Positions 3,203 to 25,735 of a stretch of 25,735 bases of DNA are shown here, one piece after another. How positions within the stretch are numbered: the stretch's first letter is position 1; the number at the start of each line of letters is the position of its first letter. The stretch covers positions 1 through 25,735 of IMG/VR virus record IMGVR_UViG_3300034082_000444, one strand, 5' to 3'. The position numbers were made by a program, and so were the translations under genes. The stretch is from a virus. Under the pieces are notes generated by a model. It was not told where the DNA came from. It did no database searches and saw only the letters and a program-made list of their open reading frames with translations.

Positions 3203-4075
3203 ATGGACAGCACTGCTGAACCCATTGATGTCGAAACGCTGCCCAGCGGGGCAACGGAGCAAGACACTGGTATCGAAGTTGAATCATCACAACCAGATGA
3301 CGAGGATTCGATACTTGATCAATTGCTTGGAAGTGTGGAATCCGATGACGATGAAGCCGATGTAGATTCGTCTACGACCGCTTTTGAGTCTGAACCATCC
3401 ACACCCGCCTTTGACCGTGAAGTGGTCGCCAAGATCCTTAAACGGGATGGCGTACCGGATGCAATCATTTCTTCTGCTTCCGATGCTGTGCTAGCCGAAT
3501 GGGCTGCAAAGGCTGAGAAGCGACAGAAGGATGTCGATTCATACGGCGGTCGAGTGAAGCAGATGGAGGAGCAACTTGCTCAAGGGAAGTCACCAGCGGA
3601 TGCGGCTATCGAGGCTAACAAGCCTACGAATGCGGCTCCAAAGGCGGCTGATCCGTTTGAGCAAATGGCGGAAATGTATGGCGAAGACGTTGTTGCGCCA
3701 GTCCGTTCAGCCTTTCAGATGCAACAGCAGCAAATGCAGGAAAGAATGCTGCTTGCCGAAGCCCGTGCATCGGATGCTTCGATACGTGTTCAGTACGGGG
3801 CGAAGGCTCCAACCTTTGACGTAGTCGTAGCGAAGATGTCTGCAATGGGTGCTGCAAAGCCGGGTGGGTACGCGAGCATTGATGAACTCACGCGAGCCGC
3901 CTACACGGAACTAGTTGGAACCACAAAGTCTGCACCATCGATCAAGAACTCACAGCCAACCGCGCCACGTGCGTCAAGTCCACCTGTGAAGGCTCCTGTT
4001 CGCGATGCTGACGATGACATCCTTGATCAAATCCTCTCTGGGACGAACACTCGTTCGTCTCGCATCAAACGTTAA
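3203..4075 (+). CDS. Scaffolding protein (probable)
   Basis: 290 residues between portal and capsid genes, the classical position of the scaffold. The N-terminal 75 residues are extremely acidic (runs of D/E/S); then a helical section DREVVAKILKRDGVPDAIIS, and Gln/Glu/Ala-rich coiled-coil regions at about 100-200 (VDSYGGRVKQMEEQLAQG, QMQQQQMQERMLLAEARA). The end is Arg/Lys-rich (NTRSSRIKR), like the basic C-terminal hooks that bind capsid protein in other scaffolds. A 10-residue motif, DSILDQLLGS (35-44), recurs as DDILDQILSG (271-280). SD GAGGA at 3192-3196 supports the start. No protease motif is visible. Function is inferred from position and composition. Confidence 0.75.
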   Translation: MDSTAEPIDVETLPSGATEQDTGIEVESSQPDDEDSILDQLLGSVESDDDEADVDSSTTAFESEPSTPAFDREVVAKILKRDGVPDAIISSASDAVLAEWAAKAEKRQKDVDSYGGRVKQMEEQLAQGKSPADAAIEANKPTNAAPKAADPFEQMAEMYGEDVVAPVRSAFQMQQQQMQERMLLAEARASDASIRVQYGAKAPTFDVVVAKMSAMGAAKPGGYASIDELTRAAYTELVGTTKSAPSIKNSQPTAPRASSPPVKAPVRDADDDILDQILSGTNTRSSRIKR

Positions 4076-4087
4076 AAGGAATAGGCA

Positions 4088-5365
4088 ATGCCTTCAATTA
4101 CACAATTCAATGACTTCATGCAGTCAACCGGACCTTCTTATCTGAAGAGTGCGGATGCCGTTATCAACGAAGCCGTCAAGAACAACTACGTTCTCTCGCG
4201 TCTCCTCAAGGAGAAGGCAAGCGAAACAACTGTTCAGGGTGGTACGTCCATTAAGGATGTCATCGTCTTTGACGATGCTACGACCTACCAGAAGTATCAG
4301 CCAAACGACACGTTCACTTGGTCGAACCCACAGGTCACTGACACGCTGACCGCTCCTTGGCGTTTCAGCATGGACCATATGTCGTGGACCGATCAGGAAA
4401 TTGAACTGAACGAAGGCGACCCAAAGGTCATGTACAAGCGCGTGAAGCGCATCAAGGAAATGCGTATGTGGACTTCCATGCTGAACGGCATGGAGAACGA
4501 TCTGTGGGCAACTTCCTTCGGTAACTATGGCAACATGGAAACTGGTGGCAAGGAGCCGTACTCGCTTCCTTCATTCATCACCGAAACCGTCAACTCGGAT
4601 CTCACCTTCGGTGAGCGTGGTGGTGTGCCTGCTGGTTGGACGAACATCCTCGGCATCAATCCTGCCAACGACCCACGTTGGACGAACCAGATTTCGTTCT
4701 ACAACCGTCTTGCTGGTCACAATGATCTGCCTAGTGTGCAGGCTGCTGATGCGTTCGGAACCAGTGGTCATAACAACAATGACCTTATTGCCCGAACTGT
4801 TTATAGCCTGTTTGGTGCATTTGACGATATGTACTTAAAGGTGCAATTCAAGGCTCCTCTTACGCAGAAGCAGTACTTTGAGGAGACGATGTTCAATCGT
4901 CAAATGATCTTGTGCTCAAAGGACGGTATCAACCTGTACAAGCGATCACTTCGTCAATCGAACGATATGCTTGTGAGCGCACAGGATTCGGCGTACAACA
5001 CGCCTACCTTCAGTGGTATTCCTGTTGAGTACTGCGCCAACATGGATACGGCTGCAATTTACCCTGCTATTGCTTCTGGATCGTCAGTTACTGATACGTT
5101 GGCTGGTCGTAACAGCAAGACGGTAGTTGCCACCGGAACTGAATTCGCAGTAAACACCATTGATAAGGGTGCTCGTTTCTGGTTCGTCAACGGTCAGTAC
5201 ATCACGCCTATCTATCACTCGACTCGCTACATGAAGAAGCATGATGTCATGCGTCACCCAAATCAGCCGTTCAGTTGGGTACAGCCTGTTGACTGCTGGT
5301 GGAACGTGTTCTGCAACAGCCGTCAGCGTCACGGAATCGTTGCCCCTATCTCGCTCGCTTCGTAA
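4088..5365 (+). CDS. Major capsid protein
   Basis: 425-residue protein, the likely shell subunit. It lies directly after the scaffold, has the best SD of the region (AAAAGGA at 4074-4080) and is followed by a strong terminator, as for highly expressed capsid genes. Visible features are an N-terminal helical arm (MPSITQFNDFMQSTGPSYLK), a beta-hinge-like GGTSIKDVIVFDDATTYQKY, and a Trp-rich DNA-distal end (QPFSWVQPVDCWWNVFCNSR). Length fits HK97-fold capsid proteins that are not fused to a protease domain. No maturation protease is seen nearby. Codon usage is strongly biased to a few codons, suggesting high expression. I could not name the exact family. Confidence 0.85.
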   Translation: MPSITQFNDFMQSTGPSYLKSADAVINEAVKNNYVLSRLLKEKASETTVQGGTSIKDVIVFDDATTYQKYQPNDTFTWSNPQVTDTLTAPWRFSMDHMSWTDQEIELNEGDPKVMYKRVKRIKEMRMWTSMLNGMENDLWATSFGNYGNMETGGKEPYSLPSFITETVNSDLTFGERGGVPAGWTNILGINPANDPRWTNQISFYNRLAGHNDLPSVQAADAFGTSGHNNNDLIARTVYSLFGAFDDMYLKVQFKAPLTQKQYFEETMFNRQMILCSKDGINLYKRSLRQSNDMLVSAQDSAYNTPTFSGIPVEYCANMDTAAIYPAIASGSSVTDTLAGRNSKTVVATGTEFAVNTIDKGARFWFVNGQYITPIYHSTRYMKKHDVMRHPNQPFSWVQPVDCWWNVFCNSRQRHGIVAPISLAS

Positions 5366-5416: not shown

Positions 5417-5959
5417 ATGATTACTGCTCCAAATATGGGAACAATCGGAATTCAGCCTGTTGGTGCTGTTGTCCGATGCATCAATAAAGACTCAACCGCT
5501 TTGGTGGTTGGCAATGTCGTTATTACTTCGTTTAACCACACTGGCGTTATCTATCCACCCGCCGAAACTCCTACAAGTTTTGAACTGTCACCATTCTCAT
5601 GCGTGAAGTTGGCAGAGGGAGATGTCAATGCAACGTCTGGCGATGGAAGCCACAAGAACGCTGGGTATCTTGGAGTTGTTGTTGGGTTGTCTTCGCAAAG
5701 CAACTCTGGTGTAACTGGTCAGGCTGTGCAGGTGCAGTTTGGTGGAGTTGCAACTGCGCTTGTTGCGGCAGTGACAAACAACGTGGTCATCGGCAGCAAG
5801 TTGTTCTTGTCGGATACCGCTGGTCGCCTTGGTAATGAAGCCGATTCAACGGCTCCTGACACGTGTGTTGCTCTTTCGCTTGGCGCAGTGACCGCTGCTG
5901 CATCTGGAAACATTCCAGTGCTTCTGTTCAATAGTCCGATTGACGGAACCACGGCGTAA
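5417..5959 (+). CDS. Decoration/spike-base-like module protein A
   Basis: 180-residue beta-rich protein immediately after the capsid terminator, SD AAAGGAAA at 5404-5411. It is a paralogue of the proteins at 6034 and 9108: shared blocks are (I/L)GxQPxG, a C-(I/V)-N-K turn, GNVVITSFNHTGVIYPP, GYLGVVVGL, VQVQFGG and a late AG. Hydrophobic strands with Gly/Asp turns and the position after the capsid gene fit a capsid decoration (cement) protein of the lambda-gpD/DUF2190 type. This is inference; the alternative is a base domain for head fibres or spikes. It has a longer loop at residues ~55-85 than the other two copies. No signal peptide or membrane segment. Confidence 0.7.
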   Translation: MITAPNMGTIGIQPVGAVVRCINKDSTALVVGNVVITSFNHTGVIYPPAETPTSFELSPFSCVKLAEGDVNATSGDGSHKNAGYLGVVVGLSSQSNSGVTGQAVQVQFGGVATALVAAVTNNVVIGSKLFLSDTAGRLGNEADSTAPDTCVALSLGAVTAAASGNIPVLLFNSPIDGTTA

Positions 5960-5976
5960 TTCTGTTAACACCATAA

Positions 5977-6004
5977 CCACTGGACGGGGAAACCCGTCCA
6001 GTGG
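5977..6004 (+). promoter_or_regulatory. 12-bp perfect hairpin with GAAA loop in 5' UTR
   Basis: CCACTGGACGGG (5977-5988) pairs perfectly with CCCGTCCAGTGG (5993-6004) around a GAAA (GNRA) tetraloop. No U-tract follows (ATTTCAATG), so it is not a standard terminator. It sits between genes A and B, 29 bases before the start of gene B. Roles could include mRNA end protection, RNase processing or a weak pause site. Its right arm is duplicated at 6544-6555 before the adaptor gene, where no left arm is present. Confidence 0.8.
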
Positions 6005-6015
6005 ATTTCAATGCT
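5990..6015 (+). repeat. 26-bp direct repeat, copy 1
   Basis: Bases 5990-6015 match 6541-6566 at 25 of 26 positions (T6006 versus C6557). The repeat consists of AAA, the right arm of the hairpin, then ATTTCAATGCT, including an ATG. The two copies flank the gene at 6034-6522 precisely, like the scar of an insertion or duplication. Confidence 0.85.
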
Positions 6016-6037
6016 GATCAACAAGGACATCAAATGA
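6011..6037 (+). other. 8-codon leader ORF / relic of adaptor gene start
   Basis: The ATG in repeat copy 1 opens an 8-codon ORF, MLINKDIK, ending in TGA that overlaps the ATG of gene B (ATGA at 6034-6037). The corresponding ATG in repeat copy 2 begins the adaptor protein MLYYKDLT. The peptides match at M, L, K, D and similar residues. It is either a relic of a duplicated adaptor-gene start or a translated leader that couples to gene B. An AAGGA at 6023-6027 inside it serves as SD of gene B. Confidence 0.5.
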
Positions 6038-6522
6038 TCTTTACTCCATCGGCGAATGTGCTCGGCGTACAGCCAATGAGTTACACGACACAGTGTGTTG
6101 TCCGCACTGCAAATGTTGCCGTTGGCGATGTTGTTGCCACCTCGTTTCTGCATGGCAGTGTGGTTGTTGATCCAAGTTTGGGCTATGACCCACTGTATGT
6201 CTTCAACTCTGTTGCTCCAGCAGACGGCGATCTTGCGAACTTCAATGGTTACATTGGAGTTGTTACTAGTCTGGATCGCGCTGATGGAACTGTTGGCAAG
6301 ACAGTCACTGTCCAGTTTGGTGGAATCGTCACTGCTAAGGTTATTTCAAGTGCGGCATTGGCTGTTGGTGCATTGCTTGAACCCGGGAATACGGCTGGGT
6401 CGTTTGTTGACGTAGGCGGTGCTGGTTCATATCCAGCAGCAGTTCTCATGGAAGCAATTTCTACTGCTTCGACAGGGCAACGCCGCGTCTTTATCCCGCT
6501 GCAATATTGGTTCCGTGATTAG
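6034..6522 (+). CDS. Decoration/spike-base-like module protein B
   Basis: 162-residue paralogue of module protein A and of the N-terminal domain of the SGNH protein. The start at 6034 (MIFTPSANVLGVQPMSY) was chosen because AAGGA at 6023-6027 is well placed and because it aligns with MTFAPVQNRLGVQPVG of the third copy; the frame is open upstream only through the repeat. Shared blocks include GDVVATSFLHGSVVVDP, GYIGVVTSL, VTVQFGG, AG and a C-terminal RRVFIPLQYWF, the last matching KRVYIPQEYTF of the third copy. It is flanked on both sides by a 26-bp direct repeat. A role as capsid decoration or fibre-base protein is inferred from position and paralogy. Confidence 0.75.
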   Translation: MIFTPSANVLGVQPMSYTTQCVVRTANVAVGDVVATSFLHGSVVVDPSLGYDPLYVFNSVAPADGDLANFNGYIGVVTSLDRADGTVGKTVTVQFGGIVTAKVISSAALAVGALLEPGNTAGSFVDVGGAGSYPAAVLMEAISTASTGQRRVFIPLQYWFRD

Positions 6523-6540
6523 AGCGTTTGATGATTGATT

Positions 6541-6566
6541 AAACCCGTCCAGTGGACTTCAATGCT
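6541..6566 (+). repeat. 26-bp direct repeat, copy 2
   Basis: Second copy of the repeat at 5990-6015 (25/26). Here the ATG within the repeat (6562-6564) is the start codon of the adaptor gene. The left arm of the hairpin is missing, so no stem can form. Recombination between copies would delete gene B exactly and restore an adaptor gene preceded by the hairpin. Confidence 0.85.
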
Positions 6567-7287
6567 TTACTACAAAGACCTGACGAACCATGTGTTGCTT
6601 GCCATCGGTGGTCGCCCATCGACTGCCGCTGGTCAGACTGTCGCAGAGCGACAGGCTGAGATCATCAATCAGGCTGGTGAGCATCTGTTTGGCTACCAGT
6701 GGACGTTCAGGCAAGCCACCGCAATGCTGTCAACGGTTGCAGCCCTGCCCTATGTGGTGCTGCCTGCTGACTTTTCTGAACTGATCGCCGCGTGGAGTGG
6801 AACACTTCCGCTCTTGATCACTAATCAGGACGAGGTAGAGAACACCCGCTCGTCTGAATTCAACAGTTACGGTACGCGAGGGTACGTGAAGGCTGTTGTG
6901 CCTACGACTGCCGTTCCAACGCAGACATATCAGTTGCAAATCTATCCAACTCCGACAAGTTCGGAGGAAAACAAGATCAAGATCACATATCGCACAGGCT
7001 GGCAGCGCGTATCGACTGCTAATTTGCCCACGGATGTCATCTCAATCCCACTGTATCTAGAAACATTGCTCGTTCTCTACGTCCGGGCAATTACTGAGTC
7101 GTATGAAGACGGGCAGCAGTCTCAGCGTCTTGCAGAGATTGAGGCTGGACCACTCTTTGGTACTGCGCAGCGTAAGGACGGGATGCTGCAAGCCCACTTT
7201 GGTCAGTTGCGACCAAACGTTTGGACAAACAACTATCGAAACAACGGCGGATTTGTAATGACAAACACCGTCCCAAATCCATCATAA
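6562..7287 (+). CDS. Tail tube adaptor protein A (T7 gp11-like)
   Basis: 241 residues from ATG 6562. The frame is open upstream to a TTG at 6535, but the ATG gives the expected N-terminus, MLYYKDLTNHVLLAIGGRPS, a helix-Gly-Gly-Pro pattern like gp11 adaptors (xxAVNxILxxIGExPV). Next comes RQAEIINQAGEHLFGYQWTF, matching the helix ending GWxFN/GWTFR that is typical of gatekeeper/adaptor proteins; then beta strands ending DFSELI, and a C-terminal long helix with YEDGQQSQRLAEIE. It should form the ring between portal and nozzle. The SD is weak (AGTGGA), unlike neighbours, perhaps because the repeat displaced the native leader. Confidence 0.85.
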   Translation: MLYYKDLTNHVLLAIGGRPSTAAGQTVAERQAEIINQAGEHLFGYQWTFRQATAMLSTVAALPYVVLPADFSELIAAWSGTLPLLITNQDEVENTRSSEFNSYGTRGYVKAVVPTTAVPTQTYQLQIYPTPTSSEENKIKITYRTGWQRVSTANLPTDVISIPLYLETLLVLYVRAITESYEDGQQSQRLAEIEAGPLFGTAQRKDGMLQAHFGQLRPNVWTNNYRNNGGFVMTNTVPNPS

Positions 7288-7296
7288 GGAAACGCT

Positions 7297-7818
7297 ATGT
7301 CAGTAGACCTATCAGGACGCGTTGGAAATGTTACTGTTCAACAAACACTTGTTGATGCATTTGAATTGGCAAGCCTTACAAACGTAACTACGGTTACCAC
7401 TGTTGCCACAAAGTTTGCTACGGCTACGCGCCCTGTTACTACTGGCGCAAGCGTAGTCGTTGGAGCACAATTAAATTACATCAAGTTTCAAACGCTATCG
7501 ACATCTGGAAACGCAGTGACTGTCTATGTCATCGGATGGACGTATTCAGCATCTGCGTCTGTATGGATTCCATCCGTACTGTGCAAGATGGTTGTGACAT
7601 CCGCTACTGCTGGTCCAATTACTGTTGCTAGTACAGCCTTGTATCCCGGTCTGACTTATGCGACTCCAACACTTGGAGATGCAAAGCGATATAACGGAGA
7701 AAACGCATCATGTCCAAACGGGTTTGCAATTGTTGATACAACTGGTTGCGAACTCGTCGAATTACATATGGTGTCTAGTTCTGCTGTTGCCGCAAATGCA
7801 GTCTTTGGTTATCTATAA
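7297..7818 (+). CDS. Hypothetical beta-rich virion protein
   Basis: 173 residues, rich in Thr, Val, Ala and Ser, with no recognised family. It has many short predicted beta strands (VTTVTTVATKFATATRP, AVTVYVIGWTYSASASVW), consistent with a surface or fibre-associated virion protein. Good SD (AAGGAAA at 7287-7293) supports the ATG at 7297. It contains three cysteines, unusual among its neighbours. Its TAA overlaps the start of the fibre gene (TAATG), so it is translated together with it and could be its partner or chaperone. Confidence 0.65.
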   Translation: MSVDLSGRVGNVTVQQTLVDAFELASLTNVTTVTTVATKFATATRPVTTGASVVVGAQLNYIKFQTLSTSGNAVTVYVIGWTYSASASVWIPSVLCKMVVTSATAGPITVASTALYPGLTYATPTLGDAKRYNGENASCPNGFAIVDTTGCELVELHMVSSSAVAANAVFGYL

Positions 7819-9089
7819 TGCAAAGCCGCGCACGAACTTGGAATTTGACTGGTGATCCGATGCAGCGATGTCGCGAGCGTCAATTACCATTGAATGGTCC
7901 ATCTGCTGGATCTACGCTGTCGCTAGACTTTACAACGATGAATGGGGTACTTGACCCACTTATCACGTTCAGCCGCGTAGACGCGACCGCTCGGGCTACC
8001 TTCATCAATAGCCTTGGCTATGTTGAAACCGTGCCAGCCTTGCAACCGCAAGCCCCTCGCTTTACCTTCTCAGAGACATCTATTGGTAGTCCGCGTGGGT
8101 TGCTGCTAGAAGCACCAGCAACCAACCTCCTTAAATTTTCCGCGTATCCCGATTCGGGTTGGTTAACGGCTGGTGGATTTACTAGACCGTCTCCGTACAT
8201 ACTAGTTACAAGCCCTGCGAATGATTCAACGGCAACGAAGTTGAATTACACAGGGACCGGGCAAGGTATGTATGTGAGCGCGGGTTCGATGGCATACACA
8301 AACTCAGTTGGAAGCGTTTACACGTTTAGTGTTTGGCTTCGTGCAATACCGGGCGTGACAGCAAATGCATCGCTGCGCTTTAGTGATTCGGCTGTAGGTT
8401 CTCCTGTTACAACCGTTTCTTTTACAACCACATGGGCAAGATATCAATTTCAATATACGGCAGTTACCAATAGTGGTCCTTATATGCAAAGTGCATCCGG
8501 AACCGCAACCGGACAATTTGAGTGTTGGGGTTGCCAACTAGAACTAGGTTCTCAACCTTCTAGTTATATCCCGACCACAAGCACAGCACTCACCCGCGCC
8601 GTAGACACCGCCATCATTGCCGCCGGGACGAACTTTAGTTCGTGGTATACGGGCGGGACAACGGGTACGTTTGTCGCCAACTGGTACGGCAACGCGTCAA
8701 GCACAACCGCTCGCACGGTAATCGCAACGAGCGATGTAGATGACAAACACTTGCATATGTATCAAACCGCCTCCGCGCTCACCCTGCGACTGGCAGACTA
8801 CACAGCAATAGCAACCGTCACAACAGCAAACAGCCTGACCGCCAACGCGTTGACGAAGGGCGCATTCAGTTACGCTAGTACGGCTACCAGCCTGTGCCTG
8901 AACGGCGGGACGGTCGCTACGGGGACGCTCGGGTTTAGCGTTGCACCAACGTTCCTGAGTATTGGCGGACCATCGACAACCGGAACCAGCATTACCGACA
9001 CAAGTGTATTGCTTAAAAACTCAATCCGAAGTATTACCTATTTCCCAACGCGATTGTCTGATTCTGAAATTCAGGCTCTCACAACTTAA
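7818..9089 (+). CDS. Head-spike/tail fibre with CBM- and LamG-like modules
   Basis: 423-residue adhesin candidate. The N-terminus contains TLSLDFTTMNGVLDPLITFS followed by PRGLLLEAPATNLL, matching the common phage head-spike-fibre family (SLDFTxGxLDxRITFxRxS ... PRGLLIExxRTNLL). Residues ~115-250 form a CBM4/9-like jelly roll (VYTFSVWLRA, FECWGCQLELGSQPSSYIPT then TRAVD). Residues ~265-420 form a concanavalin/LamG-like domain ending SIRSITYFPTRLSDSEIQAL. These bind sugars in other proteins, so host-surface recognition is likely. GC content rises sharply at about 8570, at the boundary between the two modules, suggesting mosaic assembly. The start overlaps the previous stop; a second possible start is at 7860. 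Confidence 0.82.
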   Translation: MQSRARTWNLTGDPMQRCRERQLPLNGPSAGSTLSLDFTTMNGVLDPLITFSRVDATARATFINSLGYVETVPALQPQAPRFTFSETSIGSPRGLLLEAPATNLLKFSAYPDSGWLTAGGFTRPSPYILVTSPANDSTATKLNYTGTGQGMYVSAGSMAYTNSVGSVYTFSVWLRAIPGVTANASLRFSDSAVGSPVTTVSFTTTWARYQFQYTAVTNSGPYMQSASGTATGQFECWGCQLELGSQPSSYIPTTSTALTRAVDTAIIAAGTNFSSWYTGGTTGTFVANWYGNASSTTARTVIATSDVDDKHLHMYQTASALTLRLADYTAIATVTTANSLTANALTKGAFSYASTATSLCLNGGTVATGTLGFSVAPTFLSIGGPSTTGTSITDTSVLLKNSIRSITYFPTRLSDSEIQALTT

Positions 9090-9107
9090 TAAACCTTTGG
9101 AGACACG

Positions 9108-10928
9108 ATGACATTTGCACCAGTTCAAAATCGTCTTGGCGTACAACCTGTAGGAACAACTGTTACCTGCGTCAACAAGTCTGGTACATCAGTTGCTATT
9201 GGCGATTTGGTGATCACCTCGTTCATCCACGCTGGCGCGGTCGTTAACCCTGAGCAGGCGGCGAACACTGGCTACGTGTTCAACTGCATCCGCAAGGCTG
9301 TGTCTACAGAGACTGGCAATACGGGCTACCTTGGCGTGGTCACGGGTCTGATGACTGGCGCAGGCGACAACGGTCGCGAGGTGCAGGTGCAATTTGGTGG
9401 CATCTGTTCTGCTAAGGTTCTTGTCACTGCGACCGTAACTCCGGGAACACTTCTTAGCGTTTCGGCAACTGCGGGGGTGCTAACAAATGCTGTTACCGCA
9501 TCTGAATACTCAGTGACCTTGATGGACAATGCAGCGGTCGCTGATGGAACTGCACTCAAGCGTGTTTATATTCCACAGGAGTACACGTTTGGTACAACAA
9601 ATTCTCCAGTACCGGGGGTTTATGGCTCAAGGCGTGTTGGTCAGTTCTTGCGAGATGTAACAACACAAACCGACTCGGTTGATATCCTCATTGCCGGAGA
9701 TTCAAACACCAACATTAATGGTTGGGGGTGGGCAGACGGTTTGAATTTTGCGTTGCAAACAAACACTTCTGCGCTTGAATACGCCACACCAATTACGCCA
9801 ACCAGTTCATGGAACGGTAATTCCTATTACGGCGTGTATGCAGCAAACGGATTTTGGGCAAGAATCCCAACTGGTGGAGTAATTGTTAACCCAGAGGGTT
9901 TACCCGCACTTGGTGGAACGCTTGTCAGCGGCAAAGTTTCTGGACCTGCGGCACTTACTGCGCTGATGACACGGGGTACTGGAGACTTACAACCAAATAC
10001 AAGTCCATTCGATTATGGCTGGATTGCTAGTGGGTTTTGGTCTGACAAATTTGCTGGACCCCAGTCGTACCAGAGCACGACTATATTGTCATGGAGTCAA
10101 TTGGAAATACGTTATCGAGTAGTCCATGGTAAGGGACCCGGAATGGGAACGATTGGGTTGGGTGCTCGCCTAGATGTTGGTCCGTTTACAACTTATGGAA
10201 CATCATCAATTGCTTGCGATACAGGTGCAGGTTCTCCCTATCAATGGGTTACATCAATTCTTTCGCTTACAGCCGATAGCGCAAGAACAAACCAGAAGAT
10301 TCAATACACGTTTTCATCTGATGTTACAGTTCCAAGCACCAAAATAACTGGTCCGATGGCAATTGCACTCAACTCCATTTGCACACCACGAAAGGGATAT
10401 TCAGTCACCTGCATAAACCATCACGGTGGCGCAAACATGGATACTGTCTCAAGCAATGTAGTACAAGCAGCAACTCTTTTACGTCAGTATTTGAAAGAAG
10501 CACGACTTCGGCAGATTGATTGTCTTGGATCTGGTCGCGTTATTGTCTGCATTCAGGGCGGATGCAACGCTGGTGTAAACCCATGGAGTCAAAGCGCAAC
10601 TACATTCTTTGAACAATGTGCAACAGAGTGGGCTGCGCTTGGATACCCAAGTTCTGATCTTGCATTCTTGGGATTTGTTTCGCACCAAGAAAACGACCCT
10701 GATGACATGACTGCAGAGCGAAGTTCGGCGATTGCACTTGCTACGTCTTCTCCGCAATACACCATTGTCAATATTCCAACGTTCGTTTCTTTTAGCGATA
10801 TGACATATGGCGGCGGTTCAAACGTGACATGGTTTGCCGATGCCAGCACGGAACGCATTCATTTGTCAGAAAGCGGATACAAGGCAATTTCCGGACGAAT
10901 TATTACTAGGCTTCTTGCAACTGCATAA
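9108..10928 (+). CDS. Decoration-module/SGNH hydrolase fusion
   Basis: 606 residues with SD GGAG at 9099-9102. Residues 1-165 are the third copy of the module seen at 5417 and 6034 (RLGVQPVG, GDLVITSFIHAGAVVNP, GYLGVVTGL, VQVQFGG, KRVYIPQEYTF). From about 190 an SGNH/GDSL-type hydrolase follows: block I ILIAGDSNTN with nucleophile Ser199, block III QGGCNAG with Asn487, and block V ERIHLSESGY with His585. The usual Asp three residues before His is Glu582. Block I to block V spans ~390 residues, about twice the usual, with a beta-rich insertion at ~270-430. Likely substrate is an acyl/acetyl group on host surface polysaccharide. The N-terminal domain probably anchors it to the virion. Confidence 0.82.
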   Translation: MTFAPVQNRLGVQPVGTTVTCVNKSGTSVAIGDLVITSFIHAGAVVNPEQAANTGYVFNCIRKAVSTETGNTGYLGVVTGLMTGAGDNGREVQVQFGGICSAKVLVTATVTPGTLLSVSATAGVLTNAVTASEYSVTLMDNAAVADGTALKRVYIPQEYTFGTTNSPVPGVYGSRRVGQFLRDVTTQTDSVDILIAGDSNTNINGWGWADGLNFALQTNTSALEYATPITPTSSWNGNSYYGVYAANGFWARIPTGGVIVNPEGLPALGGTLVSGKVSGPAALTALMTRGTGDLQPNTSPFDYGWIASGFWSDKFAGPQSYQSTTILSWSQLEIRYRVVHGKGPGMGTIGLGARLDVGPFTTYGTSSIACDTGAGSPYQWVTSILSLTADSARTNQKIQYTFSSDVTVPSTKITGPMAIALNSICTPRKGYSVTCINHHGGANMDTVSSNVVQAATLLRQYLKEARLRQIDCLGSGRVIVCIQGGCNAGVNPWSQSATTFFEQCATEWAALGYPSSDLAFLGFVSHQENDPDDMTAERSSAIALATSSPQYTIVNIPTFVSFSDMTYGGGSNVTWFADASTERIHLSESGYKAISGRIITRLLATA

Positions 10929-11709: not shown

Positions 11710-11816
11710 TTCTCGCAGACCTAAGTTCGTTCATCGGTAGCGTGTGGGCAGTTGGCTTGGCGTTGGTAGTTGGCGTTGGTGCAGGGTATTACCTGCGCAG
11801 CAAGAAGCAGTTCTAA
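11706..11816 (+). CDS. Small transmembrane protein (36 aa), holin candidate
   Basis: A 36-residue ORF starting in an ATGA overlap with the lipoprotein gene stop. It has one hydrophobic segment, residues 9-29 (FIGSVWAVGLALVVGVGAGYY), with small residues suited to helix packing, and a basic tail LRSKKQF, predicting N-out/C-in orientation. Short single-TM proteins of this kind act as pinholins or lysis accessories in some phages; nothing specific proves that here. Coding status is supported by the exact overlap. A strong AGGAGG follows its stop and serves the next gene. Confidence 0.6.
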   Translation: MILADLSSFIGSVWAVGLALVVGVGAGYYLRSKKQF

Positions 11817-11835
11817 TACAAGAGGAGGATTACTA

Positions 11836-13017
11836 GTGGCGATCAAGATGCAAATTCGGCGCGGAACTTTGGCGGCTTGGGATGCTGCTAGTAATCCTGT
11901 TCTTGAACCCGGCGAACTTGGCTTTGTGACTGACGTTGGCAAGACGGCGTTCAAGATTGGCGACACGGCTGGTACTGGGTGGAACACGCTTCCATACGTC
12001 AACTCGACCTATCCAGAGTTGTTACCTGATGCGGGTGGCAACCTTGACTTATCAATTGCGCAAGGTCGGTATCAGTTGTTAAGCGGAACCTCTTACACAA
12101 ACGTACCAGCAACAGACTTTACTAACACTACAACTGATGGTAATTGCCTTCTTTTCGTTACTGTTCCATCCACGACTATTATTATCCAAGAGTTGACAAC
12201 ATCGTTGACAACGTGTAAGCGATTCATCCGTGCCAAAAATAATTCTACGTGGACCGCATGGAAACGTATTGACAACTTGAGTGCTAGTGAAAGCCTGTCA
12301 ATTACAAACTTGGTTCTCAGTGGAAACCTCACTGTCGGTGGAAGATCGTTTGTTTCTTCAGGATCAGCAGCCGCGCCATCAATAACGATTACTGGTGATA
12401 CAACTACTGGGCTTTACCAATCTGCTGCACAGGAAATCGGTATTGCCACCAATGGTGCGAGCCGTGTCAGGGTTGGAGACTCACTTACTACCGTTACTAC
12501 TGGATTGACAGTTTCGTCAACATTGACAGCAAGTAATGCGCTCACTGTTTCTGCCGGAGCAGTTACTCTTCCAGCAGGATCAGTTGCTGGTGCTGCCCTA
12601 GCAGACAATGGGGTAACCGTTGCCAAACTTGCACAACTTGCAACATTGACTGTTCTTGGAAACAGTACTGCCGGAACTGCTAATGTGGCTGCATTGACAA
12701 GTGGCTCTAGTGGTACGGCACGAACTGCACTTGGACTTGGGACAAATGCATATTCGTCCGTTACTCCACTTCCGGCATTTCAAGTAGGCGCAGGGGTTGG
12801 TCAGGTCAAAGCGGCTTCTGCAATTGCAAGTACAAGTTCAAATGATCCTATTACATTCGGTGCAAGTGGAGAAACATGGTTTGTAATCGTGTGGAAACAA
12901 TGGCAAAACTTAGGAAGTACAGGATCAGCAACGATTGAAGTATTGACCGCTCCAAAAAATTACGTTCCACTGGCTAGTCAGTGGGGGGTTATTGGATTTG
13001 CAATTAGAACTGCCTAA
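11836..13017 (+). CDS. Tail fibre with Mtd_N-like head and pyocin-knob domain
   Basis: 393 residues from GTG 11836, chosen because AGAGGAGG lies at 11821-11828 with good spacing and the protein then begins MAIKMQIRRGTLAAWDAASN. That opening, with VLEPGELGFVTDVGKTAFKI then GDTAGTGWNTLPY, is the conserved N-terminal attachment domain of many phage fibres (IQxRRGTxxxWxxxNPVLxxGExGxETDTxxFKIGDGxTxWxxLPY). Residues ~70-145 look like a pyocin-knob domain (SIAQGRYQLLS ... STWTAWKRID). After that comes a repetitive shaft with ITGDTTTGLYQSAAQEIGIA and VTVAKLAQLATLTVLGNSTA. The last ~75 residues (from FGASGETWFVIVWKQWQ) form the tip. Probably trimeric and receptor binding. Confidence 0.82.
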   Translation: MAIKMQIRRGTLAAWDAASNPVLEPGELGFVTDVGKTAFKIGDTAGTGWNTLPYVNSTYPELLPDAGGNLDLSIAQGRYQLLSGTSYTNVPATDFTNTTTDGNCLLFVTVPSTTIIIQELTTSLTTCKRFIRAKNNSTWTAWKRIDNLSASESLSITNLVLSGNLTVGGRSFVSSGSAAAPSITITGDTTTGLYQSAAQEIGIATNGASRVRVGDSLTTVTTGLTVSSTLTASNALTVSAGAVTLPAGSVAGAALADNGVTVAKLAQLATLTVLGNSTAGTANVAALTSGSSGTARTALGLGTNAYSSVTPLPAFQVGAGVGQVKAASAIASTSSNDPITFGASGETWFVIVWKQWQNLGSTGSATIEVLTAPKNYVPLASQWGVIGFAIRTA

Positions 13018-18711: not shown

Positions 18712-21700
18712 ATGACCTCATTACAACAAACCATTGATGATTGGTCGAGCATCCTAGCAAAGCCAATTTCTGTTGGTCCAACACCGCCTAGTAACGGTGT
18801 TGATAGCAGTCTTTATCTAGGTAAAGCAATTGAGAAGTCGTATGAATTGATGACTGGTGTGGATGCCGCGCCCGGGTCTTCGACCGCTGATCAGGATCTG
18901 ATTGCATCGGCGGCTAAGTCCAACAAGTTTGAAACGATCATGCCCGACACATCGTGGGCGGGTTTGAATCTGCGTGAGGTTGCGCGTGGGTCGCAACAAC
19001 AATCGAGTCTGGCTGCTTCTGCAATTGCAACTCCAAGTTTGCGAGCAGAATTCATGCAGTCAATAATAAAGGCATATTCGTTACTTGGTGATTGGATCAT
19101 CCCACCCCAGAGTGAATTTGAAACTAGGTTTCGCGAGTTAACACGGAAAAATTGGGCTGAAAATTTATCGATGATGGTTGAACCTGAAGGATCTGGTTTG
19201 ATTGTGAGTCCACAGGACTTGAAGTCTGAAATCATTGCGCTTAGAGGAACCCAACAGGGTTTGGCTCAGGGTCAACAAGAAGGATTTGCCGGAGACGTAT
19301 CACGTGGCATTGGGCAGTCGTTGCCATCACTTGCTGTTACGGCTGGAACCGTTGCTACTGGAGGAGCGTTGTTGCCAATGATGTTGGCATCACAAGTTAC
19401 TATTCCACTGTCATCGTATACCAGTAGTCAATTGGCTTACATTGATGATCTTGAGCAGCAACGTTACGACCAAGCACTAGCGGGTGAAACGCTTTCGGAG
19501 TTTGATCCTGTTGAAATGAGAAGACGCGCTGAAATCGGCGCATTAATTGAAACCACCGCCGAAATGGGTGGGGCAGCGTTTGGTGCAAAGTTCATCGGTA
19601 AGGTTGCGGGTCGTGTTGGTACATCATCGGCTGCTAGGTATGCAACAAACAAGTTTGCTAAGACTGGCGCAGTTAAGGCGGCAACAGAGGCTGTTCGCCG
19701 CAGTGGTTCCACTGCTGGTCGGTTATTTACTTCTGCTAATGAAGGCGTGATGAACTTCACTCCGGGATTCATTTACCGAGGTGGTCAGATTTTCTTAATT
19801 AGTGGTCTTGAAGAAGCAGGCGAAGAAGGTTACGCGGCTTTATTAAACGCACCAATGACTTACGCACCGTGGACTAAGGATGTCACTGACGGTCTTTATA
19901 GTATGGCTGTTGGCGGTGTGGCTGGTGGTGCTGGTGGTGCTGCTTCTAGTGTTGGTCTTGCTGGGCGCGAGGCTGTTATTAATATCAAAGATGCGTTCCG
20001 TCCAGAGAATGACCGCGAGCGCATTGTCCGACAGACCCACTCCGATGCAATGAAGGCTCGCTCTAACTGGAGTGAAGGTCTAGAACAAACACAGCGCGAC
20101 CGCATTGCTGCGAAACTCGATACTGTTGAGGGCATGACTCCGGACGAGCGCGGTACGTATGTGAAGGATCTTGCTGACCGCAAGGCAGAGATCATTTCCA
20201 ATGCGGAAGCCACGCTTGCAGAGCGTCAAGAAATAGACATTGCCATGACTGGCGCACAAGAAGTGTTGGATAAGGCAAAGGCTGCTGCCGGGACAGCCAG
20301 CCCGACTGCTGACCAAGATATCTACGAGGCTGAGTTCGCATTGCTGGTGTTGCAAGAAAAAGCAAACGAACTTGATCAGCAACTAATACTAGCAAATACC
20401 GATCACATGATTGCAACTGCGGAGCACGGCGCGGTAGCGGAGAAGATCTCCGATATGCCTGCTACGGTGGTGCGGTCTACCCCGGTTGAGGTGCTTGCCT
20501 CTGTTGGTACACGCAGTGGCGTGGCACTGACAGAGACGAAGGCTCCACGCTGGGGGAAAAAAATCGCCAACGAGATGGAGGCTCTTGGCACTCAGGTAGT
20601 GTGGTACACGCCTGCTGACAAGAAGTCTTCCAATCCCGGCTTTCATAGTCGGCGCACACCCGGTGTGATTTACCTGAACGCTGCGTCTAATCAGCAGCGC
20701 GTCCGGGCTGTCGCACTAGAAGAAGCGTTCCACGACATCCAGATGTTCCGCCCTGACATTGCTCAGGCGTTCGTGGACAAGGCGGGTCTGCTGCCTGTCT
20801 ATGACGCGGCACTGGAATACGTGTCTCGCGGGGGCGCGGAGACAGCGGCGATTGAGCGGCAGGACGAGGCGGCATTCGCGCAGGCGGAGAACGTGGCGGC
20901 TACATTGGAGGGTGAAACCTCCGGCATCTCGCCGAACGCTGCCCGTGCTGGAGCCGCCAGAATCTCTCAGGAGGGCGAGGCGAACGCCTTTGCCCGTGCG
21001 ATGGCAGGCATCAAGGCGAAGGGAGCCATGAGCAGCCTGACCCGGCTAGCGGCACGTTCCGGGCTGATGGGTCGGGAGTCATTGGCTGCGATGGCGGTGG
21101 TTGACCGGGTCGCCCGGTCGGCTGCAATCGAGGCTGTCAGTGGCAAGACTGGTGACGCGACCCTGTCCCCATTGGCGCGGACGCTGATGTGGGCATCAGA
21201 CATGGACGTTGACTTTGCCCGTGACATCCCAACGGCTGACCGGGAATTGTCTGAGCCTATCCCCGCACCCGTTCGTCCTGCTGCGCCTGCTCAAACAGCA
21301 CAAGTGCAAACTGGTCCAACTGCTGAGACAACGAGCACGGTTGGTCGGCGTTTAGTTGCGGACGCTATCAAATCCCTTGGTCTAACCGAAGAAGAAGTCA
21401 ACGCCACTGTCATCGACTTGATGACGGGACTTCCAAAGACAAAGGCATTTGTTGCTAACAAGATTGGCAAGGTTCCAGATGTTGTGAAGTACATCCACGA
21501 ACGCAGACTTGCGTCCGGGCTGCGCATACTCGACATCACCAAAGAAGAAGATCAGATCACGCTTGCCAAGTTGATGGCTGCGGAAGCAATCGGTGCAATC
21601 AATAGTGCTGGCGATGCCTTGCAGTGGTACGACAAGACTATTAGAAATACTCTTGCGCAAGCCGCCATTAAATACCCTGAGTTGGAAACTGATCCACGGG

Positions 21701-24700
21701 CGCGTATGGCGTTCATCCTGTCGATGGCAATTACATCACAGACGATGAATGTTGAGGACAACCTCGCGTTCAGCATGGTTCAATACGGTAAGTATCGAGA
21801 TACAGTAGATCCTGTTACTGGCATTGGACAATTTGAACTGGCTGGTAAGGGTAAGAACGCGGGTGCGCAAGCAAACAACTTCCGCATTGCCAATGTGATG
21901 TTGCGCACACTCGGACCGGATCAGATGATTAGGTTCTTGCGCACTAAATTCACTGCTGGTCAATTATCAAACGCTGGGTTGAATATTGGCGGTGAGTTGA
22001 AATCTGAAGAGGTGCTTGGAAGTGCGATCTTTGGACCAAAGATTGGCTTTGGTTTCTATTCCAATCTCGATGGCAACTTTGATCCAGTGACAATGGATAT
22101 GTGGTTCATGCGAACCATTGGTCGATTGACTGGCAAATTGCCTGCGTTCGATCAGAATAAATACGACAAGCAGATTGTGAAGTTGAGAGCCAGTTTGGCT
22201 GAGAAGGGAAGCAATGGAATCTTCCCATCAACTATTGATCAGGCACTCATTGACGATGCCAACAATGCGACTGATGATTCTGGGCTAGTCAAACTAGCAC
22301 GTGCAGTAATCAAATTGCATGAAAAGGATTTCAAGGACAACCGTAAGGACTATGACAACAAAGATCGCGTCCAAAGCAAGATGGTTCTTGCATCAAAGGC
22401 GATCATCCAATCGTTGGATAAGCCACGCGATAGCCCTAAGTCTGGTGGCGAACGCCGATTGTTGCGTAAGGTTGTCAAACTTGCTGTAGCCAATGTCAGT
22501 GAAATTTATGGGGAAGAGGTTGCAAACGCTGCGTTCCAAGCAATGATTTGGTATCCGGAACAGGAACTCTACAAGTCACATGGTGTTAAACTCAAAGTCA
22601 CCAGTCAGGATTACTCCGGGGCAATCAGGAAGATCCTGAAGAACGAAGGAATTACAGATGGACAACTCGACACAGCAATCGCAACAGCAGAACGTGGATC
22701 AGGACTTGCACGGCAAGTGGCTGGAGTCACTGACACCGCAACAGGTGGACTCACTAGCAATGTCCCTGTCCAAACTCGCACTTTCAGTGATGCAGAACGA
22801 GCCAGTTTCCTCGCAACCACTCCGGTCGCAATCGCCAAAGCGTGGAACCCTCCAGCCCAAGACCCAAACCTCGATGAACTCCAAGCCCGATTCGCTGGAG
22901 ACTTTGAAGCAGTCATCTTCACAAGAAAACAAAGACAATCAGCATATTCCAGCAATTGGCAATATGGACGAAGCCTCGTTGGAAATGGCACGAAGCCTCG
23001 GATTCTTAAATTAACAGACGAAAGCGGCAAGAAGTCTTCGCTTCCGTACATTGCTGAAATTGCGCCGGGTGATGCGCTAGGCATTGTGTTCAAGAAGGCA
23101 GGATTGCTTTCGCCTAAGTTTGTTGAACTTGCGCCCGTCAAGGTGTCAGCGATGTGGTTCAACAAGACCATATCTGCATTCAAAGCAGAGGACAAGTTTG
23201 GCGCGTGTGTTGCTGCATACCCTGCTGATGATTACGTTGGTATGCGTTTGTTCATTGCAATGAATGGCAAATCTGGATTTGCTATTAAGCCAGACGGCGA
23301 TGTCATCTCTGTATTTGCCTATGACAAACACGGACGCGCCATCCTTGAAGCATCAACTGCTGTTGGTGGCAAGAAACTTGATGCATTCGATACAGTCTTG
23401 CCCGTCATCTATGCCGCACACGGATTCAAGGCTACGTCTCGCCTGAAGTTTAGTGAGCAAGAGAAGCCCGAAGGCTGGAACTACGACACGTTCAAGCGAT
23501 TCAACAATGGCAGACCAGACGTTGTGTTCATGGTGAACGATCCAGCGTCAATGACAAGGTATCAACCAACGGATGGGCAACTGGTTGAGGATTACGGTGA
23601 AGCCGTAGCCATCCAAGATAGGGCTGTGTCGGATGTTTCGTTTGCCCGTGAAGACGAGCGCGATGCTGGATACATGGATGCTGTTGATCGTGGCGATATG
23701 CGAACTGCACAGCGCATGGTCGATGAGAAAGCAAAGAATGCGGGGTACACCATCCCCGTATATCACTTCACTGATGAATCATTTACGGCATTTGATATTC
23801 AAAAGGGAAGGGCTGGTGCGGGTATCTGGCTGACCGCATCTCCTACAGGATGGTCTGGTCAAAACAAACTCAATCTGTATCTCAATCCCGGCAAGATTCA
23901 AACAGTTAAAACTCAATTTGATAAGACATGGCGCGAAGGCGAATTGAGTATTGAAGGAATACTTGAAGGCGATCTTGACACAATTTCGCAGCAGAATATT
24001 GATACTCTTAAAAACGAAGATTACAGATCTACGTTTTATGTAGCCACTCGCCCCGAACAAGTGAAGTCTGCTGATCCAGTTACACGTGACGAAGCAGGCA
24101 ATGTCATCCCGCTATCGGAACGGTTTGATGCAAGTCGCGCTGAAATTTCCTACGCCCGGACACCATCTGTAAAGTTTGATAAACAAACCAACACGTTACA
24201 AGTTCCAGATGGTTATGCCGTTCGTTTGACGAGACTTCCATCATTTGGATCTACAGAAGATTCGCTTGCAAATATTGTCCCAGAACGAAAGACGCATCAG
24301 TTTGCATTGCTTCCAACAAAATGGATTGAAACGTTTTATAGTCTGACTTTGAAAGATCCAGAAAAAGTATCTCGATATGGCATGACAGCAGTTGCCATTA
24401 ATCCGGGAACACTTGTTGCCGACATGGTGTTTGCCAATCGTTTTTATCGAACTAACAATCCAGAAGACGCGCAAGCGTATGCAAACAGCGTAAGAAAACT
24501 AGAAGAGGCTACGCTTGATAATTACCAACAGCCTGAACTTCTTATCCCATTAGAACAAGACATCTCATTCTCCCGTGAAGACGAGCGTGATGCCTTATTC
24601 CAAAAAATGCAAGCCGAACGCCGTGCTGCCCAAGCAGAGGTGATGAAGGATCTATCGCCGCGTGAGCAGGCACTAATCATTGAGGCTGGCATTGCTGACT

Positions 24701-25735
24701 ACGATGAGATCCTTGATCTTAAAGACAAGATCGACAAACTAAAGAAGCAGATTGCAAGCGGCACACCTGCTGCTGTCGAGAAGTCCAAGCGCACTGCTGA
24801 TCTACAGACTGCCGCGCAGCGCGTCAACGCACTGAGCGAGGTGCGCAAACTAGAGCGCAGGCTAAACGCCATGACCATGCTTGCCGAACAGCGGCTTGGT
24901 CAGGTCAACCGTGCCAAGGCGCGTCTGCAAACCCAGACTCAACTGGCAATTGAAGAGCAACAGTCAGCAGCCGAAACCATTGCATCACTTGAAGAACAGA
25001 TCACGACTACCAGAGATGCCGTAGCCGCTGCTAAGAAATCGATTGCTGAAGAGCGGACTGCTACCAAGGAACAGCGCGATGCACTCAACACTGCGTTGGC
25101 AAATGCCGAAGCCACAGCACAACGTGCTATCAACTGGGCGTATGCCATTGGTCGCAACGAAGGACTGGTTGCAGGTCAGGTTGCCGGACAGCAGGCGGTA
25201 CAGACTGATCTTGAGCGCGGTCAGCAGGCAGAAGAGAAACTGAAGGAACTTCAGAAGTCTGAGCGGTTCCAGAAGTTTGCTAGCCAACGCGCCATTGACT
25301 GGGCATACCGGATCGGTCGCAGGGAGGGGCTGGTTGCAGGTCAAGTGGCAGGTCAACAGGCACTGAAGCCAGAGATGACGCGCCTTGCCCGTGTTGAATC
25401 GCTGCTCGACATCTCTGTCCGCCGCGTCCGTGAACTCAAAGCCACTGTCCGCAGTGATGCTCGCGCTGCTCAACGAGCAGTGAACTTTGCGTACTCGATG
25501 GGTCTGAACAAGGGTCGTATGCAGGGCATTATGCAGGGTCGAGCACAGATCCTTGCGAAGATGCGCAAGCGTGAAGACACCTTGCAGAACCAGTTGTTTA
25601 ACCTGCGTGAGTTGATGAACACCCGGCTCGATGATGTTGCAGAGCGCAATCGAATCATCCGCAAGATTACGTCAGAAGCATTGCTGTCCATCCCAGCGAA
25701 CCTGCGTGGCACACTTGCCAACCGTGCCGCTACTG
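18712..25735 (+). CDS. Giant polyvalent/ejection protein, 3' truncated by window
   Basis: Open from ATG 18712 to the last base: 2341 codons without a stop. The SD is weak; start is the first ATG after the upstream stop. In order: helical N-terminus with hydrophobic Gly/Ala segments at ~204-235 and ~394-420; a zincin-like region (~585-690) with EEAFH at 670-674; a GC-rich linker to ~850; an all-helical HhH-like region (~880-1320) with FGPKIGFGFYSN and VTMDMWFMR; a GNAT-like domain (~1444-1610); an ADP-ribosyltransferase-like domain (~1654-1810) with YHFTDESFTAFD, GAGIWLT and EQVKSADPVT; an unknown domain to ~1950; then coiled coil with a three-times repeated 27-residue motif. Such multi-domain chains are known as polyvalent proteins of phages and conjugative elements. 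Position after internal virion proteins suggests packaging and injection. Confidence 0.85.
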   Translation, partial: MTSLQQTIDDWSSILAKPISVGPTPPSNGVDSSLYLGKAIEKSYELMTGVDAAPGSSTADQDLIASAAKSNKFETIMPDTSWAGLNLREVARGSQQQSSLAASAIATPSLRAEFMQSIIKAYSLLGDWIIPPQSEFETRFRELTRKNWAENLSMMVEPEGSGLIVSPQDLKSEIIALRGTQQGLAQGQQEGFAGDVSRGIGQSLPSLAVTAGTVATGGALLPMMLASQVTIPLSSYTSSQLAYIDDLEQQRYDQALAGETLSEFDPVEMRRRAEIGALIETTAEMGGAAFGAKFIGKVAGRVGTSSAARYATNKFAKTGAVKAATEAVRRSGSTAGRLFTSANEGVMNFTPGFIYRGGQIFLISGLEEAGEEGYAALLNAPMTYAPWTKDVTDGLYSMAVGGVAGGAGGAASSVGLAGREAVINIKDAFRPENDRERIVRQTHSDAMKARSNWSEGLEQTQRDRIAAKLDTVEGMTPDERGTYVKDLADRKAEIISNAEATLAERQEIDIAMTGAQEVLDKAKAAAGTASPTADQDIYEAEFALLVLQEKANELDQQLILANTDHMIATAEHGAVAEKISDMPATVVRSTPVEVLASVGTRSGVALTETKAPRWGKKIANEMEALGTQVVWYTPADKKSSNPGFHSRRTPGVIYLNAASNQQRVRAVALEEAFHDIQMFRPDIAQAFVDKAGLLPVYDAALEYVSRGGAETAAIERQDEAAFAQAENVAATLEGETSGISPNAARAGAARISQEGEANAFARAMAGIKAKGAMSSLTRLAARSGLMGRESLAAMAVVDRVARSAAIEAVSGKTGDATLSPLARTLMWASDMDVDFARDIPTADRELSEPIPAPVRPAAPAQTAQVQTGPTAETTSTVGRRLVADAIKSLGLTEEEVNATVIDLMTGLPKTKAFVANKIGKVPDVVKYIHERRLASGLRILDITKEEDQITLAKLMAAEAIGAINSAGDALQWYDKTIRNTLAQAAIKYPELETDPRARMAFILSMAITSQTMNVEDNLAFSMVQYGKYRDTVDPVTGIGQFELAGKGKNAGAQANNFRIANVMLRTLGPDQMIRFLRTKFTAGQLSNAGLNIGGELKSEEVLGSAIFGPKIGFGFYSNLDGNFDPVTMDMWFMRTIGRLTGKLPAFDQNKYDKQIVKLRASLAEKGSNGIFPSTIDQALIDDANNATDDSGLVKLARAVIKLHEKDFKDNRKDYDNKDRVQSKMVLASKAIIQSLDKPRDSPKSGGERRLLRKVVKLAVANVSEIYGEEVANAAFQAMIWYPEQELYKSHGVKLKVTSQDYSGAIRKILKNEGITDGQLDTAIATAERGSGLARQVAGVTDTATGGLTSNVPVQTRTFSDAERASFLATTPVAIAKAWNPPAQDPNLDELQARFAGDFEAVIFTRKQRQSAYSSNWQYGRSLVGNGTKPRILKLTDESGKKSSLPYIAEIAPGDALGIVFKKAGLLSPKFVELAPVKVSAMWFNKTISAFKAEDKFGACVAAYPADDYVGMRLFIAMNGKSGFAIKPDGDVISVFAYDKHGRAILEASTAVGGKKLDAFDTVLPVIYAAHGFKATSRLKFSEQEKPEGWNYDTFKRFNNGRPDVVFMVNDPASMTRYQPTDGQLVEDYGEAVAIQDRAVSDVSFAREDERDAGYMDAVDRGDMRTAQRMVDEKAKNAGYTIPVYHFTDESFTAFDIQKGRAGAGIWLTASPTGWSGQNKLNLYLNPGKIQTVKTQFDKTWREGELSIEGILEGDLDTISQQNIDTLKNEDYRSTFYVATRPEQVKSADPVTRDEAGNVIPLSERFDASRAEISYARTPSVKFDKQTNTLQVPDGYAVRLTRLPSFGSTEDSLANIVPERKTHQFALLPTKWIETFYSLTLKDPEKVSRYGMTAVAINPGTLVADMVFANRFYRTNNPEDAQAYANSVRKLEEATLDNYQQPELLIPLEQDISFSREDERDALFQKMQAERRAAQAEVMKDLSPREQALIIEAGIADYDEILDLKDKIDKLKKQIASGTPAAVEKSKRTADLQTAAQRVNALSEVRKLERRLNAMTMLAEQRLGQVNRAKARLQTQTQLAIEEQQSAAETIASLEEQITTTRDAVAAAKKSIAEERTATKEQRDALNTALANAEATAQRAINWAYAIGRNEGLVAGQVAGQQAVQTDLERGQQAEEKLKELQKSERFQKFASQRAIDWAYRIGRREGLVAGQVAGQQALKPEMTRLARVESLLDISVRRVRELKATVRSDARAAQRAVNFAYSMGLNKGRMQGIMQGRAQILAKMRKREDTLQNQLFNLRELMNTRLDDVAERNRIIRKITSEALLSIPANLRGTLANRAAT
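25117..25197 (+). repeat. 27-residue coding repeat, copy 1
   Basis: Encodes residues 2136-2162 of the giant protein, AQRAINWAYAIGRNEGLVAG then QVAGQQA. Copy 2 differs at only four of 27 residues. It lies in the C-terminal coiled coil, an Ala/Gly/Gln helix with an aromatic NWAY/DWAY core. Confidence 0.85.
25282..25362 (+). repeat. 27-residue coding repeat, copy 2
   Basis: Encodes residues 2191-2217, SQRAIDWAYRIGRREGLVAG then QVAGQQA. It is 55 codons downstream of copy 1, a multiple compatible with helical register (about five heptads and a half). Confidence 0.85.
25468..25548 (+). repeat. 27-residue coding repeat, copy 3 (diverged)
   Basis: Encodes residues 2253-2279, AQRAVNFAYSMGLNKGRMQG then IMQGRAQ. 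It is 62 codons after copy 2. It keeps the QRA(I/V)(N/D)(W/F)AY..G...G pattern but not the LVAGQVAGQQ part. Confidence 0.7.

Follow-up and report, generated by a model that had tools for sequence, protein, structure and literature searches.

A capsid decoration-type module joined to an SGNH-type hydrolase in an uncultured podophage and its possible display on the phage head

Can a tailed phage carry an enzyme on its head by joining it to a further copy of the protein that decorates its capsid? This question is raised by a 25.7 kb virus record (IMG/VR IMGVR_UViG_3300034082_000444, positions 1 to 25,735; hereafter "the window"), whose gene content is that of a short-tailed phage. Two small genes after the major capsid gene encode stand-alone proteins (modules A and B), and a gene located farther downstream encodes a 606-residue fusion in which a related module (module C) precedes a hydrolase. 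A sequence-only reading of this region had proposed that the three modules are paralogues, that the stand-alone copies coat the capsid, and that the fusion would then display an esterase on the head rather than on the tail. Our analyses suggest that the fusion is probably displayed on the head via its decoration-type base, a capsid location that we infer from the evidence presented below.

Three modules related to capsid decoration proteins

The open reading frames reported at 5417, 6034, and 9108 are present at these positions, and all lie on the plus strand. Module A (5417..5959) has 180 amino acids, module B (6034..6522) has 162 when read from the ATG at 6034 (the frame is open from a GTG at 6001), and module C comprises residues 1-160 of the fusion (9108..9587 of a gene spanning 9108..10928), where it forms an N-terminal base that is conserved among fusions. 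A tblastn search with fusion residues 1-170 recovered the other two copies in the window with E values of 5e-31 (40% identity) and 8.5e-23 (44% identity), and module C is 40% identical to module B. Pairwise module scores, when compared with those from 500 shuffles, gave Z values of 18.6, 25.8, and 35.6. The proposed paralogy is thus borne out. The motifs listed in the sequence-only reading are likewise real, and R-V-(F/Y)-I-P-x-x-Y is confined to B and C as described, but copy A carries IGIQP rather than LG(V/I)QP. Furthermore, the term "triplicated" is a loose one. In the family tree, some of whose middle forks are not resolved, A clusters with the stand-alone copy found in L036/L056-type phages (related loci are given L numbers), B with that of L015/L018-type phages, and C with other fusion bases. 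Because the copies fall into three different lineages, we rejected a recent triplication in place.

Related loci were gathered by using the fusion, the modules, and the capsid protein as queries. A module directly follows the major capsid gene in all 80 loci with at least 600 bases downstream of that gene, although these contigs are partly redundant. Locus counts throughout are not independent, because fragmentary contigs are common and some contigs nearly duplicate one another (in this region, L004-L006 are equal to the window). The window's capsid protein (4088..5365, plus strand, 425 amino acids) matches the NCBIfam model NF033394, capsid_maj_Podo, with 89.1 bits (cut-off 80; E = 3e-25) and phrog_9953, a major head protein, with an E value of 1e-12; the modules are presumed to partner with it. 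About 50 bases separate its gene from the start of module A, and the fusion gene lies about 3.7 kb away.

Family searches point in the same direction as gene order. Among 51 members of the module family, 23 match the Pfam family Phage_cement_2 (PF09956; best E value 3e-8) and 18 match PHROG 122, which is annotated as "head decoration" (best 1e-6). The fusion of L127 itself matches PHROG 122 at 0.004, and the stand-alone copy of L103 scores 27.2 bits against PF09956, which is over the cut-off of 24 bits. The modules differ from Phage_cement_2 in that they are about 160-180 amino acids long, versus 103 positions for the model, and in that they also occur in fused form.

Sequence searches of the PDB with the fusion and with a module profile returned no match. 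The AlphaFold2 model of module B (mean predicted local distance difference test [pLDDT] score 82.5) matches the capsid-stabilizing protein of HFTV1 (Z 12.3) and the decoration proteins of Sf11 (Z 11.2), T1 (Z 10.2), TW1 (Z 9.7), and Pam3 (Z 9.7). Together with FCWL1, these span Z values of 9.6-12.3 across 118-130 residues, and the decoration protein of XM1 is also among the solved structures matched. Almost all matches to this model are capsid decoration or capsid-triplex proteins. In addition, model residues 15-155 align with residues 1-113 of phi29 gp8.5, which form its base (Z 8.6), and the gp8.5 fiber starts just after. Module C, taken from the fusion model (residues 13-164), matches the HFTV1 decoration protein with a Z value of 11.6 and the same protein set with values of 10.6-11.6, and its predicted strands coincide with those of module B. 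The structural comparison proposed earlier therefore comes out positively for B and the fused copy, which share predicted strands and both match decoration proteins and the phi29 fiber base, as judged from single-chain models of B and the fusion.

The N terminus of the module provides a further indication. Residues 7-14 are the second most conserved of 148 eight-residue windows, yet the first ten residues are poorly predicted in the lone-chain model of module B (mean pLDDT 46). This combination fits an arm that becomes ordered on the capsid, which is the role described for N-terminal arms of decoration proteins (PMC7602432). From gene order in the 80 loci, family matches, and predicted fold, we conclude that the stand-alone modules are very probably capsid decoration (cement) proteins, as had been proposed. 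In two loci (L011, 1016-1654; L012, 3203-3898), the first module after the capsid gene comes from the family's other deep branch while neighboring genes are window-like, and we therefore interpret these cases as swaps of the decoration gene.

The hydrolase and the exchange of fused domains

The sequence-only reading had described a hydrolase of more than 400 residues behind the third module. The C-terminal extension is 437 residues long and combines SGNH-type motifs with an esterase fold, although it yields no significant Pfam or NCBIfam family match. The motifs are GDSN at residues 197-200 (Ser199), GGCN at 484-487 (Asn487), and HLS at 585 (His585). Three residues before this histidine, where Asp is usual, the window has Glu582 (in E-R-I-H); L008 has Asp, and others vary. 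The closest fold to residues 169-606 (9612..10928, plus strand) is an Ape1-type peptidoglycan O-acetylesterase (PDB 4k3u; Z 19.7, root mean square deviation 3.8, 305 residues aligned), and the fusion model matches many GDSL esterases with Z values above 11. A beta-sandwich is inserted between the serine motif and the remainder of the hydrolase domain, with residues 233-325 modeled at low confidence. The SGNH fold with its inserted beta-sandwich is shared with Ape1-type esterases (PDB 4k3u and 8gkd), whereas identity is only 14%, the insert is partly poorly modeled, and the fusion has Glu in place of the usual Asp. On the basis of the predicted fold, the extension is likely an O-acetylesterase that would act on surface glycans.

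A search for further fusions of the same module, as had been suggested, turned up about 25 distinct fusion proteins, one of which ends at a contig edge. The conserved bases share about 90% identity, and those of the window type are 79-93% identical to that of the window. Nucleotide identity between these fusions is about 85% up to codon 160 and about 40% past it (the junction, 9588..9611 on the plus strand), with extensions that differ abruptly from residue ~160 on. These extensions include several SGNH types and, in L027, a glycine-rich repeat protein. The L027 extension (924-2372) has GGxN-type repeats that by eye resemble trimeric adhesin heads; its assignment as a YadA/Hep_Hag repeat was unsupported by Pfam, PHROGs, and a tandem-repeat scan. 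For the base in this window-type group, the median rate of nonsynonymous substitution (dN) is 0.079 and that of synonymous substitution (dS) is 0.658 (dN/dS ~0.12). By this measure the base is under strong purifying selection while the extension is exchanged.

A second base type is found in L093, L103, and L125-L131. It occupies a separate, well-supported part of the tree along with the stand-alone copies of such phages, and the L093 and L103 bases nest among stand-alone copies from the same phages. The fusions are polyphyletic, and a single origin of all fusions was rejected by the approximately unbiased test (AU p = 6e-118). Furthermore, the two base types carry related SGNH domains. L127 is similar to L014, and L103 to L024, with the likeness beginning just past the base and not extending into it. 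Together with polyphyly, these relationships indicate from sequence comparison that cargo is exchanged between anchors and that anchors were recruited at least twice from different decoration lineages. LamG-like extensions (phrog_5939; 9e-53 for the L083 fusion) are carried on another base in L067, L083 (12923-15250), and L086. Because a LamG-type domain of this family forms a separate fiber in the window (7818-9089), the same cargo evidently moves between anchors.

Every capsid locus with a fusion keeps a stand-alone module. Fusions were present in 21 of 39 loci, a share that is biased by the manner in which the loci were found. In L093 (6064-6546) and L128 (5492-5974), the fusion is immediately preceded by an extra stand-alone module, which is a long way from the capsid gene; it is perhaps a duplication remnant or a partner of the fusion.

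Head display and competing explanations

We propose that the module is a decoration protein of the beta-tulip or cement type and that an additional copy was turned into the base of a head appendage. The stand-alone copies would cover the head, with trimers at threefold or quasi-threefold sites as the likeliest arrangement and the conserved N-terminal arm holding on to the capsid protein, as inferred from solved relatives. The exchangeable domain would be attached at the C-terminal end of the base, which is the point where phi29 gp8.5 leads to its fiber, such that cargo would be directed outward from the head. In the window, this cargo would be the SGNH O-acetylesterase-like hydrolase with its carbohydrate-binding-like insert. 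A minority of fusion subunits might occupy decoration sites amid plain copies, and such mixing in small numbers would be possible because plain copies persist. The head-borne enzyme could then remove acetyl groups from matrix or from glycans on the host surface while the phage approaches and reversibly attaches. A broader proposal is that, in an uncultured podophage clade, a duplicate of the cement protein acts as an all-purpose anchor on the head, with SGNH esterases, LamG-type lectins, and repeat adhesins swapped onto it between phages as cassettes, an arrangement that would have evolved at least twice. We consider the chances of this broader proposal to be about even.

A serious but less likely alternative is that the fusion is a tail appendage. 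A decoration copy could have been co-opted to dock the protein onto the adaptor or nozzle, and the product would be a long tail fiber or tailspike with esterase activity. Several observations weigh for this explanation or against head display. In phage SU10, the long tail fiber genes gp12 and gp13 directly follow the adaptor gene and their products dock on the adaptor (PMC9509320). The fusion gene occupies the same position, between a SU10-type adaptor (6535..7287, plus strand; Pfam SU10_adaptor 37.1 bits, cut-off 27) and the nozzle. In the window it is preceded by two more genes, namely gene 7297 (7297..7818) and the gene for the LamG-type fiber (7818..9089; phrog_5939, a tail protein, 2e-31), both on the plus strand. 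In L007, L008, L011, L014, L027, L103, and L127, it comes immediately after the adaptor and the pair formed by these two genes is missing, an arrangement seen in nine loci in which the fusion might replace a tail fiber. Moreover, some fusion extensions match a PHROG labeled "tail protein," podophage tailspikes with SGNH esterases are known from Moo19 and B2 (PMC11654681), and the Pan3 tailspike matches the fusion model (Z 11.3). The phi29 tail spike gp12 also shares the module fold, though only in its C-terminal residues 692-854; these lie beyond the mature spike (1-691) and outside its anchor, and we discounted this match as evidence for a tail anchor. Finally, the window copies do not reach the PF09956 cut-off, with module B at 19.2 bits (E = 0.0016) and A and C not reported by the search.

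Against a tail location, no tail anchor appears among the listed structural relatives of the base, an absence that is no proof. The LamG pair and the fusion co-occur in the window, L018, and many relatives, and a separate fiber gene lies beside the nozzle gene in nearly all loci that reach the nozzle. The adaptors of L103 (fusion, no gene 7297) and L106 (gene 7297, no fusion) are almost alike, and two independent fusions used decoration modules and retained the N-terminal arm. Capsid and adaptor diverge together among these phages, such that co-evolution of the base with one is inseparable from co-evolution with the other. It is also conceivable, but in our judgment very unlikely, that the fusion acts as an enzyme that is free or loosely attached, either released on lysis or internal to the head, and whose base no longer binds in the virion. 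Phage Peru-2 offers a precedent, in that its GDSL esterase is abundant in purified virions, is unseen in the structure, and was assigned by the authors to the internal core (PMC13320782). Purifying selection on the base despite exchange of the extension argues against this possibility, as does retention of base and arm in independent fusions. Likewise, the low Pfam scores of the window copies and the weak matches of single family members to other virion families might suggest that the modules belong to another class of structural protein, such as head completion or tail tube proteins. Given that the fold matches are almost all to decoration or capsid-triplex proteins and that the commonest family matches are to cement and head decoration families, we regard this as highly improbable.

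Known systems, neighboring genes, and implications

Two known systems come close to the head display proposed here. The phi29 protein gp8.5 sits on the head at quasi-threefold sites (PDB 6qyy and 6qvk; PMC6542822) and, like the fusion, has an N-terminal base of the module fold with an appendage C-terminal to the last base strand. However, it carries a helical fiber rather than an enzyme, and the paper describes neither separate plain copies nor a family of swapped extensions. The head turret of HFTV1 (gp30/gp31), reported in 2025, places a polysaccharide-deacetylase-type domain and a carbohydrate-binding domain on a tailed-virus head, and the capsid stabilization protein of this virus, which shares the module fold, binds capsid-protein trimers (PMC12494034). 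In contrast to the fusion, the turret stands on capsid hexamers via a base protein of its own, the threefold decoration protein carries no fusion, the enzyme family is another one, and the virus is an archaeal siphovirus. The tailspikes of Moo19, B2, and Pan3 also bear an esterase-type domain on a virion appendage, but they are tail-bound and, as far as seen, their anchors are not decoration modules. The literature searched (open-licence papers only) yielded no enzyme naturally fused to a decoration protein, and no decoration module joined to an SGNH hydrolase with exchanged cargo and recurrent origin. The earlier remark that this arrangement is not known as a described system holds in the strict sense, with phi29 gp8.5 and the HFTV1 turret as close precedents.

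At the sensitivity used, tblastn searches of 50,697 named phage records with the window and L103 fusions, module B and the L103 module, the capsid protein, and the portal gave no match. The capsid and portal are present on dozens of environmental contigs, and these phages therefore appear to represent a large group without an isolate.

The window carries further genes of this short-tailed phage. The portal gene spans 1126-2898, and the gene for a scaffold-like protein starts at 3203. The adaptor likely starts at the ATG at 6562, judging from an alignment of relatives. Gene 7297 encodes a conserved, beta-rich protein of unassigned function (alignment of 15 relatives) and lies between the adaptor and LamG fiber genes; it is found in most relatives but absent from loci in which the fusion gene comes right behind that of the adaptor. 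Its candidacy as a fourth module was unsupported (profile comparison probability 0.1%). Two small genes separate the fusion from a fiber gene with an N-terminal Mtd_N domain (11770-13017), a probable short tail fiber. This gene adjoins that of the probable nozzle (start at 13017), which was named from position and size and has no clear family match. The frame at 18712-25734 is open at the contig end and encodes a protein of more than 2,341 residues with a polyvalent-protein-type ADP-ribosyltransferase domain (ART-PolyVal, E = 2e-4, under the Pfam cut-off); this protein is possibly injected along with the DNA.

Depolymerase and esterase activities of phages are normally ascribed to tail spikes and fibers. 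Were the enzyme head-borne, many copies of it could be at work ahead of tail contact with the cell, and host-range evolution would extend to head proteins. The junctions between anchor and cargo would also represent naturally tested fusion points on a decoration protein that are usable for display. The turret of HFTV1 points to the same principle for an archaeal virus, and if bacterial podophages had arrived at it through a second, unrelated construction, this would demonstrate convergence. Such convergence would turn the role of enzymes on phage heads into a testable question.

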